DNA of 64,000 nucleotides, taken from contig JAPOYR010000004.1 of NCBI GenBank assembly GCA_026706485.1, positions 310,001-374,000 of the forward strand, read 5' to 3'. The notes beneath the pieces were generated by a model. That model did not search any database and was not told the origin of the DNA. It saw nothing but the letters and a program-made list of their open reading frames with translations. Position 1 is the stretch's first letter. Every line of letters begins with the position of its first letter. A program made the position numbers and the translations under genes. This stretch comes from Chloroflexota bacterium (GTDB lineage Bacteria; Chloroflexota; UBA11872). Below, one piece after another: positions 43,203 through 46,811 of this stretch.

Positions 43203-43306
43203 CGGTGGTCGACGCGCGCTCCTTCGTCTGAGGAAAAGAGCCCCGTTTTGTGGGCGACGGCGGCGGCCCGTACGATCGCGGCAGCTACTGCCGCGGGAGA
43301 TGTGTC

Positions 43307-43774
43307 ATGTCTGAGACGGAGACGTTGAAAGTGGGCGACGAGGCACCGGACTTCGAGCTTCCGACGGCCCCCAGGGACGCGGAGCCGTTCAAGCTGAGCG
43401 ACCATCGCGGGTCGACGGTGGTCATCAACTTCGTGCCGGCGGCGTTCTCGCCGGTGTGCAGCGACCAGCTCCCGATCATCCAGGAGAAGCTCGGCGGGCG
43501 CGAGGGGACCGTGACGGTCGCGATCTCCACGGACAACACCTGGACGCTCAAGGCCTGGGCCGAGCAGTCGGGTGTGAGCTATCCGGTGCTGAGCGACTTC
43601 AACCCGCTCGGAGCGACGGCGAGCGCCTACGGGGTGCTCATCGAGGACATGAACATCGCCAACCGCGTGATCGTCGTGGTCGACGATGACGGCAAGGTCG
43701 CGCACATCGAAACCGCCCCAGAGGTGGCCGAGTTGCCCGACTACGACCCCGTGATGGCGTGCCTATCGGGCTGA
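43307..43774 (+). CDS. Peroxiredoxin (AhpC/TSA family)
   Basis: A 155-aa thiol peroxidase. The peroxidatic Cys lies in FVPAAFSPVCSDQLPIIQ, where the usual P-x3-T-x2-C has Ser in place of Thr. The N-terminal VGDEAPDFELPTA is the family start. AISTDNTWTLKAWAEQSGVS and YPVLSDFN follow. It reduces peroxides with electrons from a thioredoxin-like donor. The ATG at 43307 has GGGAGATGTGTC upstream. The stop is followed by an intrinsic-type hairpin. Confidence 0.92.
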   Translation: MSETETLKVGDEAPDFELPTAPRDAEPFKLSDHRGSTVVINFVPAAFSPVCSDQLPIIQEKLGGREGTVTVAISTDNTWTLKAWAEQSGVSYPVLSDFNPLGATASAYGVLIEDMNIANRVIVVVDDDGKVAHIETAPEVAELPDYDPVMACLSG

Positions 43775-44001: not shown

Positions 44002-44757
44002 GTGAGATTTCCGAATCCGGTCTTGGCCACGCTGCGCCGAGGCGAAGTGTCCATTGGCTCCTGGCTCAACCTGGCGTCGCCGCTGGCGGCCGAGGTGATG
44101 GCGGTGGGCGGCTGCGAGTGGCTGGTGATCGACGCCGAGCATGCGCCCTGGGACCTGGGGATGATCACGGAAGGACTCCGGGCCATCGAGTCGCAGGGAT
44201 GCGTGCCGCTGGTGCGTCCCTGGACCAACGACCCGGCCTGCTTCGGACAGATCCTGGACGCCGGCGCCATGGGACTGGTGGTACCGCACGTGAGCACGGT
44301 GGAGCAGGCCGAGGCCATCGCCGAAGCCGTGCGCTATCCGCCCCGCGGGCACCGCTCGGCGGGAACCTCTCGCGCCACCATCGACCGCGCCTGGTCCGCG
44401 CAAGCCAACGACAACCTGATCATTTGCCCCCAGATCGAAGACCTGGAGGGCGTGGCCAACACCCAGGCGATCATGGAGGTCGACGGCATGGACGTGGCCT
44501 ACATCGGGCCGTCCGATCTGGCTCTGTCCATGGGCCTCACCAGCGCCGACATGTTCACGAACGCCGATCACGCGGCCGCCATCGCCGGAGTCCTGGCGGG
44601 GGCGCAGGCCGCCGGGAAGCCGGCCGGACTGCCCGCGCCCACCGTGGAGCGGGCCCGTCAGCTCATCGATCAGGGATTCACGATGATCGACTACTCGAGC
44701 GACTACCGCATTCTGCAGGCCGCGCTGGCTGAGCAACTCGCCGCGGTGCGGGCCTGA
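44002..44757 (+). CDS. HpcH/HpaI-type aldolase
   Basis: A 251-aa class II aldolase cleaving or making 2-keto-3-deoxy sugar acids or related compounds. SIGSWLNLASPLAAEVMAVG is the N-terminal phosphate-binding strand and loop. WLVIDAEHAPWDL holds the catalytic His. The metal ligands are expected in CPQIEDLEGVANTQ (Glu) and VAYIGPSDLALSMG (Asp). The GTG at 44002 follows GGAGG. The stop overlaps the dehydrogenase ATG by one base, so the two enzymes are co-expressed and may act in one carbon pathway. Confidence 0.9.
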   Translation: MRFPNPVLATLRRGEVSIGSWLNLASPLAAEVMAVGGCEWLVIDAEHAPWDLGMITEGLRAIESQGCVPLVRPWTNDPACFGQILDAGAMGLVVPHVSTVEQAEAIAEAVRYPPRGHRSAGTSRATIDRAWSAQANDNLIICPQIEDLEGVANTQAIMEVDGMDVAYIGPSDLALSMGLTSADMFTNADHAAAIAGVLAGAQAAGKPAGLPAPTVERARQLIDQGFTMIDYSSDYRILQAALAEQLAAVRA

Positions 44758-45797
44758 TGGGCGCGGAGGGCGGCGTGAGCTACCTGACCACCGAGAAGGT
44801 CGCCGTGATGGGCGCGGCGGGCGCCGTGGGATCCAACCTCGTTCAAGCCCTGATCTCCACCGGCACGGCCAACACCGTCGCCATGTACGACCCCTACGGA
44901 CCGGGCCTGGCGGGTGCGGCCGAGGAGATTTACCACTGCGCCTTTCCCGAGGCGCAAGTGACCTGGACGACTGACGCGGGCGAGGCGCTGGACGGCGCGG
45001 CCTTCGTGCTCAGCTCCGGCGGCGCGCCGCGCCGCGAGGGCATGACGCGCGAGGACCTGCTGCGCGGCAACGCCGAGATCGCCGCGCAGCTGGGGAAGGA
45101 CATCAGCCAGCACGCACCCGAGGCCAAGCTGGTGGTCATCGTCTTCAACCCGGCGGACGTCACCGGCCTGGTGACCCTGGTGCACTCGGGCCTGCCGCCG
45201 CAGCGCGTCACCACGCTGGCGGCGCTGGACAGCACCCGTCTGCAGACGCGCCTGGCGCAGCATTTCGGTGTGCCGCAGCACCGGGTGTACGGCTGCCGCA
45301 CCTACGGCGGGCACGGCCAGGAAATGGCGCTCTACAAGGGCGCGATCCAGATTGACGGGGTGCCGCTCAACGACATCGTGAACGACGGGGCCGAAGCCAA
45401 CGGCGTGGGGTTGGACGCCGACGGCTGGCAGGCGATCCGCGAGCACGTCCTCGGCGGCGGCGCGCGCGTCATCAAGCTGCGGGGACGGTCCTCATTCCAG
45501 TCGCCGGCGCACCTCACCGCGATGATGGTGCGGGCCGCCTGCGGCGGCGAGCCGTTCGAGTGGCCCTGCGGCGCATTCGTCACGGGCGAGCCGTACGCCA
45601 ACGTCATGATGGCCATGCCCACCACGCTCGGTCAGGGCGGGGTTGCCTGGCGGCTGCCCGAAGGCGACGCGGACGAGCGGGCGGAACTCGACGCGGCCTA
45701 TGCGCACCTCCAGCACCTGCGCGACGAGACGATCGGCATGGGCCTAATCCCGGCCGTCGCCGATTGGGGCTCGGTGAACCCGCACCTGGCGGGCTGA
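44757..45797 (+). CDS. mdh: Malate/lactate dehydrogenase family enzyme
   Basis: A 346-aa NAD-dependent 2-hydroxyacid dehydrogenase. KVAVMGAAGAVGSNLVQALI is the Rossmann loop. The mobile loop GGAPRREGMTREDLLRGNAE has Arg at the substrate-determining position, which favours malate over lactate. DSTRLQTRLAQHFGV and the catalytic His in YGGHGQEMAL are present. The window also holds an HpcH aldolase immediately upstream, overlapping by one base. The exact substrate is not certain. Confidence 0.85.
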   Translation: MGAEGGVSYLTTEKVAVMGAAGAVGSNLVQALISTGTANTVAMYDPYGPGLAGAAEEIYHCAFPEAQVTWTTDAGEALDGAAFVLSSGGAPRREGMTREDLLRGNAEIAAQLGKDISQHAPEAKLVVIVFNPADVTGLVTLVHSGLPPQRVTTLAALDSTRLQTRLAQHFGVPQHRVYGCRTYGGHGQEMALYKGAIQIDGVPLNDIVNDGAEANGVGLDADGWQAIREHVLGGGARVIKLRGRSSFQSPAHLTAMMVRAACGGEPFEWPCGAFVTGEPYANVMMAMPTTLGQGGVAWRLPEGDADERAELDAAYAHLQHLRDETIGMGLIPAVADWGSVNPHLAG

Positions 45798-45804
45798 CGC
45801 GGGG

Positions 45805-46263
45805 TTAGCCGTAGGTGCGCATCAGCTCTTCGGGCGTGAGGCGGCCGGCGTTGGTGGCCGAGTAGACGGCCGCCTCGACGCGGCGGTTGGCATCCAGCAC
45901 AAAGGCCGTGGCCTGGAAGGCGCGGCGGCGCTCGAAACGGTAGGCGCCCACCGCGTCGAGGGCGTCGGGGTAGGCAAGCTCGCCCACCAGCGGGAACTCG
46001 AGCCCCAGGCGCTCCGTCAGCGCCGCAATGTCCTCACGCGGGTCGACCGAGAGTCCCACCACGTCAACGCCGATCGCGTCAAGGGTGTCGAGCAACCAGT
46101 TGTAGCCGGCCAACTGCCGGCGACAGTGCGATCACCAGTGGCCGCGGTAGAACAGCAGTGCCGTGCGTCGATCCCCAAGGTCGTCCGGCACGCGGAACGG
46201 CGTCCCGTCGCCCAGCACGCCCGCTAGCGTTGGAAACGCATCGCCGAGGTTGAGTCGTGCCAT
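45805..46263 (-). CDS. Redoxin with in-frame UGA: probable selenoprotein
   Basis: Reading through one TGA gives a continuous 152-aa AhpC/TSA-type redoxin, starting at the ATG at 46263 with GGGGAG upstream. The TGA (46134-46132, codon 44) falls in LLFYRGHW-U-SHCRRQLAGY. There the redoxin family has RGxWCPxC, so UGA replaces the first active-site Cys of a C-x2-C pair. A SECIS-like hairpin lies just downstream (46101-46125). The rest of the fold is intact on both sides (LGDAFPTLAGVLGDGTPFRV before, VVGLSVDPREDIAALTERLG after), with no frameshift. It most likely reduces peroxides or disulfides. A glutaredoxin is encoded divergently nearby. Confidence 0.82.
46101..46125 (-). promoter_or_regulatory. 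Putative bacterial SECIS hairpin
   Basis: On the mRNA strand UGU-C-GCCGGC-AGUUG-GCCGGC-U-ACA forms a 6-bp GC stem plus 3 bp after a single C/U mismatch. The 5-nt loop has G at its second position. The loop starts 16 nt after the UGA. These features fit bacterial SECIS elements read by SelB. Confidence 0.65.
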
Positions 46264-46321
46264 GTCGATGCTCCCCTTTCGTTCGCGCCAGTATGACCGA
46301 CGGCGGCAGAGCCACCAGCCA

Positions 46322-46373: not shown

Positions 46374-46463
46374 GGATTCCCCACCATTACCGACCACGGC
46401 CCCGATTTGACACAATTGGGCGACGACCTTCCCGGTCCGCCGGGACTTTCCTGGAGACAACCC

Positions 46464-46811
46464 ATGGCATCACAGTCGACACCCGAGATCGTCGCCTATC
46501 TGAAGCCCGTCTGCGGCTGGAGCGCCGGCGTCCGCGCCGTCCTCGACAAGTACGACCTCGGCTACGAGGACAAGGACATCATCAACAGCCCGACGAACTA
46601 CCACGAGATGGTGATCAAGAGCGGTCAGCCGCTGTCGCCCTGCGTGGTGGTCGACGGCCGCATGCTGGCCGACGTCAGCGGCGAAGAGGTCGAAGCCTGG
46701 CTCGCCGACAAGGGCTACATCGCCAAGAACAACCTGCCCACGCCGGTCCCCATCGACCGCGCCTGCGCCGACGAAGTCCACGCCGCCAATGTCACGTTCG
46801 AGGACCTGTAG
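46464..46811 (+). CDS. Glutaredoxin-domain protein (CxxS type)
   Basis: A 115-aa protein with a glutaredoxin-like start: EIVAYLKPVCGWSAGVRAVL. The active site reads C-G-W-S, a monothiol-like variant. YEDKDIINSPTNYHEMVIKS and the cis-Pro region SPCVVVDGRMLADVSGEEVE match the fold. A ~35-residue C-terminal extension follows. The ATG at 46464 has CTGGAG upstream. It is divergent from, and possibly functionally linked to, the UGA-containing redoxin. Confidence 0.82.
   Translation: MASQSTPEIVAYLKPVCGWSAGVRAVLDKYDLGYEDKDIINSPTNYHEMVIKSGQPLSPCVVVDGRMLADVSGEEVEAWLADKGYIAKNNLPTPVPIDRACADEVHAANVTFEDL

Follow-up and report, generated by a model that had tools for sequence, protein, structure and literature searches.

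Peroxiredoxin (Prx)-like proteins in which a UxxC motif (U, selenocysteine [Sec]) replaces TxxU were reported from Sargasso Sea data (Zhang et al. 2005, PMC1088965), and a "Prx-like thiol:disulfide oxidoreductase" was described in bacterial genomes shortly afterwards (Zhang et al. 2006, PMC1794560). A 2026 review lists both a PF00578 UxxC family and a PF08534 UxxC redoxin family (PMC13188914). Here we analyze a predicted selenoprotein gene of this general type in a stretch of 64,000 nucleotides from a Chloroflexota bacterium, referred to below as the window. The source genome is a metagenome-assembled genome (MAG) of 3.37 Mb in 13 contigs and is 98% complete. A preliminary description, made from the letters of the window, had proposed the gene at positions 45805 to 46263. 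These coordinates were retained; the strand, which that description lacked, is minus, and the plus strand at these positions translates to nonsense. The frame runs from the start codon ATG (46263-46261) to the end codon TAA (45807-45805) and would encode a product of 152 amino acids with Sec at residue 44. Its parts are as follows.

45805-46263, minus strand: predicted selenoprotein gene, Prx-like (AhpC/TSA-fold) UxxC redoxin (basis: Pfam match across the TGA; dN/dS)
46132-46134, minus strand: predicted Sec codon UGA, codon 44, first position of U-S-H-C (basis: 19/19 orthologs; Cys homologs)
46123-46125, minus strand: codon of Cys47, the second UxxC residue (basis: alignment with the peroxidatic Cys of ordinary peroxiredoxins)
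46271-46277, minus strand: ribosome-binding site AGGGGAG, 7 nt upstream of the ATG (basis: sequence; conservation)

The frame contains one internal stop, the TGA at 46134-46132, in the context LLFYRGHW-U-SHCRRQL. Reading through it yields an uninterrupted redoxin, as had been proposed: the Pfam domain AhpC-TSA (PF00578) matches residues 7 to 130 on both sides of the TGA with 54.6 bits (cut-off, 26). The match to PF08534 is barely over its cut-off (28.5 versus 26.6 bits), and the profile of the SelL-related redox protein (NF040769) gave 17.3 bits, below the curated cut-off of 120. The ribosome-binding site is intact, again in agreement with the preliminary description, and is also kept in the same-genus relatives L025, L026, and L028. 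For this locus, the standard list of open reading frames (translation table 11) holds a 102-amino-acid C-terminal frame starting from TTG 46113 and nothing else, which bears out the expectation that ordinary gene callers would split or miss the gene.

Taken at face value, that list would fit a different history: a pseudogene in decay, broken by the TGA as a nonsense mutation, or a C-terminal part that is a short gene in its own right. Conservation among relatives speaks strongly against it. A search of the bacterial family (f1) recovered 19 genes in 18 of the 19 genomes, the negative genome being 76% complete. The TGA at codon 44 is the sole internal stop in all 19 orthologs, which are 61 to 97% identical. 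Between congeners, dN/dS is 0.03 to 0.09 upstream of the TGA and 0.05 to 0.06 downstream, about 0.05 on both sides, and this similar constraint before and after the TGA suggests that the two halves behave as one protein. An identical TGA in every ortholog, purifying selection on both sides, no other disruption, the occurrence of the TGA in many other phyla, and the presence of a Sec machinery make a pseudogene or a separate short gene highly improbable, and the earlier judgment that a simple nonsense mutation was disfavored is upheld. TGAs at scattered positions or frameshifts in the same gene, named beforehand as signs that would count against Sec, were not found in the close relatives, where the TGA lies at exactly codon 44. 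An error of sequencing or assembly for TGC or TGT might be suspected given that the genome is a MAG, but the codon is identical in 18 genomes that were assembled separately and come from several sequencing projects, and such an error is hardly credible.

Two observations on the family genes were made in passing. Congener dS is lower downstream of the TGA (0.16 to 0.23) than upstream (0.31 to 0.64) across the coding sequence (45808-46263), in a region wider than the hairpin described below. One MAG (G002) carries two Sec redoxin copies, one per genus type (C47:26084-26539 and C8:1776-2225; 97% and 62% identical), of which the second is on a short contig and may reflect a binning error.

Beyond the family, a wider scan, limited to a single genome for each species, returned 80 loci. 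The nearest belong to Chloroflexota MAGs, followed by SAR202/Dehalococcoidia, and the others fall in Gemmatimonadota, Acidobacteriota, Nitrospirota, Myxococcota, Pseudomonadota, and Thermodesulfobacteriota (one Desulfobacterales MAG). Several of the closest Chloroflexota MAGs bear isolate names that we take to come from sponge studies. Across the distant homologs, which span at least seven phyla, most have TGA at this codon and a few have Cys; TGY replaces TGA in Ktedonobacter and in a few Dehalococcoidia-like MAGs. Aligned with these Cys-containing redoxins, Sec44 stands opposite their Cys, so that the TGA occupies the first active-site Cys of the family, as the preliminary description had stated. 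At least 4 changes between Sec and Cys are needed to explain the tree of 71 Sec and 12 Cys rows (83 in all). Because the search patterns included LLFYRGHW, the share of Sec holds for that subfamily, not for AhpC/TSA proteins in general.

Two loci of the scan are unusual. A contig labeled Klebsiella pneumoniae (MAG) encodes a UxxC redoxin (L104:2992-3459) that clusters with sequences from proteobacterial and Myxococcota MAGs, and the species label is probably wrong. In a Chloroflexi MAG homolog (L147:3085-3087), the TGA replaces the conserved Trp codon and is followed by an intact C-S-H-C (YRGH-TGA-CSHC); a search for a convincing SECIS hairpin after this TGA found none. The L147 TGA is either a nonsense mutation, an error, or an unusual UCxxC form.

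The preliminary description had suggested a search of the genome for selA, selB, selD, and tRNA-Sec, and all four are present; a lack of this machinery, the other sign named beforehand as counting against Sec, was thus not found. SelA (414 bits), SelB (289 bits; cut-off, 242), and SelD (375 bits) are encoded, and the tRNA-Sec has the anticodon TCA (70 bits, with ARAGORN in agreement). On the other side of the balance, the genome is a MAG in 13 contigs, and the machinery genes are located on C1, C11, and C12, apart from the redoxin gene on C4. In SelD itself, the usual Sec/Cys site is encoded by a TGA (SPGAG-U-ACK, corresponding to GUxCK). Every one of the 19 family genomes encodes SelA, as do 320 of 400 genomes across the phylum. 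As a correlate within the phylum, the presence or absence of SelA was discarded as uninformative, the 320 positive genomes including Ktedonobacteria with the Cys form.

Recoding or near-cognate read-through might instead place Trp, or some other standard amino acid, at the TGA. An in-frame TGA alone would allow this, and nothing points to it specifically. Homologs have Cys at the position, directly preceded by a Trp codon (TGG), TGA is likely the end codon of several orthologs of the redoxin gene, the genome has a tRNA-Sec, and a SECIS-type hairpin follows the codon, all of which render standard decoding extremely improbable.

The hairpin lies just past the UGA.

46101-46125, minus strand: predicted bacterial SECIS element (basis: geometry rules; covariation; loop codon bias)

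Its inner stem of 6 bp pairs 46121-46116 with 46110-46105 around the loop AGUUG (46115-46111), and an outer stem of 3 bp pairs 46125-46123 with 46103-46101. The distance from the UGA is 10 nt to the 6-bp stem, 6 nt to the structure including the outer 3 bp, and 16 nt to the loop. The hairpin of 6 plus 3 bp with loop AGUUG, as first described, is thus present and has the geometry of a bacterial SECIS (bSECIS) element, while its start at 10 nt is correct for the 6-bp stem and the outer pairs already begin at 6 nt. The published bSECIS model specifies a loop of 3 to 9 nt, a stem of 4 to 16 bp, and a distance of 16 to 37 nt from the UGA, with a G in the first two loop positions and a minimum free energy of at most -7.5 kcal/mol (PMC13188914). 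The window hairpin, with a folding energy of -15.1 kcal/mol, satisfies all of these rules. The folding of this one sequence was nevertheless rejected as proof of a SECIS element: the rules in their simple form are passed after 183 of the 1,418 TGAs in the window (12.9%), an equally stable hairpin follows 3.2%, and the z-scores are weak (-1.6 to -2.1 against shuffles and -0.6 against synonymous recoding). The window is G+C rich, and 95 of its TGAs lie in long open frames, with over 40 codons open ahead of the TGA and over 100 beyond it. The fold check proposed earlier therefore succeeded as to the rules but was not significant by itself; significance came only from comparison, which shows a TGA without exception among the orthologs and a conserved hairpin.

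The stem reads GCCGGC/GCCGGC in one of the two genera and GGCGRC/GUCGCC in the other, and compensatory replacements of C-G by G-C and of G-C by G-U or A-U preserve its pairing. Paired stem cells make up 77.7% of the total in 65 distinct Sec sequences, compared with 46% in Cys genes, 63.5% in shuffles (maximum, 69.2%), and 24 to 53% in slid registers. At least 5 of the 6 pairs form in 54 of the 65 Sec genes, when a loop of 4 or 5 nt is allowed, versus none of the 8 Cys genes. The mean z-score against synonymous recoding is -0.78 for Sec genes versus -0.13 for Cys genes (one-sided P = 0.035). The Leu codon in the loop is TTG or TTA in 59 of the 65 Sec genes versus 129 of 731 other Leu codons of these genes (18%; Fisher P = 9e-34); these P values overstate independence because the compared sequences are related, but the direction of the loop-codon bias is clear. 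Judged by the stem pairing and this codon bias, the stem arms and the loop UUR look selected as RNA.

Collectively, a frame with a single UGA, a full Sec machinery, a conserved UGA, and a conserved SECIS-type hairpin argue that the UGA at codon 44 is almost certainly read as Sec and that the gene encodes a selenoprotein. SelB carrying Sec-tRNA-Sec would bind the hairpin that starts 10 nt past the UGA, and Sec would be inserted at residue 44 in place of termination.

The read-through protein was modeled with AlphaFold on an alignment of 40 sequences (pLDDT, 91.5). The closest structures to the model are peroxiredoxins of the Bcp/PrxQ type, with Bcp4 at a Z score of 21.5 over 149 residues (1.8 Å, to the predicted model). 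Some 2 kb from the selenoprotein gene, the window encodes a second AhpC/TSA protein (43250-43774), an ordinary peroxiredoxin with the motif PAAFSPVC and no TGA. In the alignment of the two, Cys47 corresponds to the peroxidatic Cys, and Sec44 falls on the Ser/Thr three residues earlier, so a UxxC motif is present where peroxiredoxins have TxxC or TxxU. Both the fold and the position of Cys47 are consistent with an enzyme acting mainly as a peroxidase, in which Cys47 or Sec44 would reduce peroxides and the other residue would resolve. Against this, the peroxide-activating residues are replaced throughout the 40-sequence alignment: an invariant R40 occupies the Pro position, U44 the Thr/Ser position, and A or P (A118 here) that of the catalytic Arg. 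The canonical peroxiredoxin set PxxxT/SxxC plus the catalytic Arg was accordingly not found in these sequences, which share with peroxiredoxins the fold and Cys47 alone. The spacing U-x-x-C is, moreover, typical of thiol:disulfide oxidoreductases. A peroxidase is a possibility that we take seriously but do not favor.

A peroxiredoxin scaffold that combines a thioredoxin-like UxxC pair with the loss of the peroxide-activating residues points instead to a selenol-based thiol:disulfide oxidoreductase, which the motif and the modeled fold make the probable role. Such an enzyme would have a thioredoxin-like U-x-x-C center where the first active-site helix of the peroxiredoxin fold begins. Sec44 would be the attacking nucleophile and would form a selenenylsulfide with the resolving Cys47, after which a thioredoxin- or glutaredoxin-like donor would reduce Sec44 again. 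Motif and fold are likewise the basis for proposing this electron donor. The two adjoining genes are as follows.

46461-46811, plus strand: glutaredoxin-family protein (CGWS), divergent neighbor (basis: Pfam Glutaredoxin, 34.7 bits; synteny)
44757-45797, plus strand: lactate/malate dehydrogenase family protein, convergent neighbor (basis: synteny within family f1)

Both genes adjoin the selenoprotein gene in 17 of the 17 loci of the family examined, and the glutaredoxin-family protein is a possible electron donor or partner of the redoxin.

Elsewhere in the source genome, a locus (L054; G000:C11:505498-509677) encodes three tandem lipoprotein-like redoxins with a Pro/Thr-rich linker and the motif FYRAFW-U-x-x-C. 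Each has an in-frame TGA with a CAGCUC-GUG-GAGCUG hairpin 15 nt downstream, and TGA-bearing relatives occur in other genomes of the family. These tandem redoxins are probably further selenoproteins.

We tentatively suggest, as an idea that may well prove wrong, that the LLFYRGHW-U-x-x-C redoxins constitute a distinct subfamily of at least seven phyla, in which Sec is usual, Cys is derived, and the hairpin loop lies within a near-fixed Gln-Leu pair (CAG-TTR). If this is true, they would represent a Sec-first family of redox enzymes that gene annotation systematically truncates. Codon-level conservation of the SECIS loop extends across phyla and could be used in searches for more such genes. An enzyme found in 18 of 19 genomes of a family is easily missed, because the calling of open reading frames with the standard code truncates or splits its gene. 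The locus leaves knowledge of the mechanism of Sec insertion unchanged, and it is a well-supported addition to the selenoproteins of those Chloroflexota that are related to MAGs from sponge metagenomes.

Compared with described systems, the gene is less exceptional than the preliminary description implied, because Prx-like UxxC selenoproteins are already described; they have been known since 2005, and the window gene adds a member to a known kind. As judged from its sequence, the predicted protein has the features of the Prx-like thiol:disulfide oxidoreductase family (PF00578, UxxC), with which it shares a Prx-like fold, Sec as the first residue of UxxC, and a bacterial SECIS element directly downstream. 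It also resembles, by listing, the Redoxin family selenoprotein (PF08534, HEU0032618.1; PMC13188914, Table 1), likewise a UxxC redoxin. The Sec-containing peroxiredoxins (TxxU) have the fold in common with the window protein, but their Sec replaces the peroxidatic Cys, at the position of Cys47, whereas the Sec of the window protein stands three residues earlier. The Cys homologs of Ktedonobacteria (L070 to L073 and Ktedonobacter racemifer L101) share the fold and the motif RGHW-C-P-x-C and are 36 to 39% identical over nearly the full length, yet they have a Cys codon in place of the TGA and lack the downstream hairpin stem. A literature search of incomplete coverage found no description of this subfamily for sponge-related Chloroflexota. 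Going by description, two features would distinguish the window gene from the known Prx-like UxxC selenoproteins, whose reference sequence is WP_010940744: its subfamily, LLFYRGHW-U-x-x-C-RRQL with U-S-H-C and an AGUUR loop, and its host, a member of the Chloroflexota related to sponge-metagenome MAGs.
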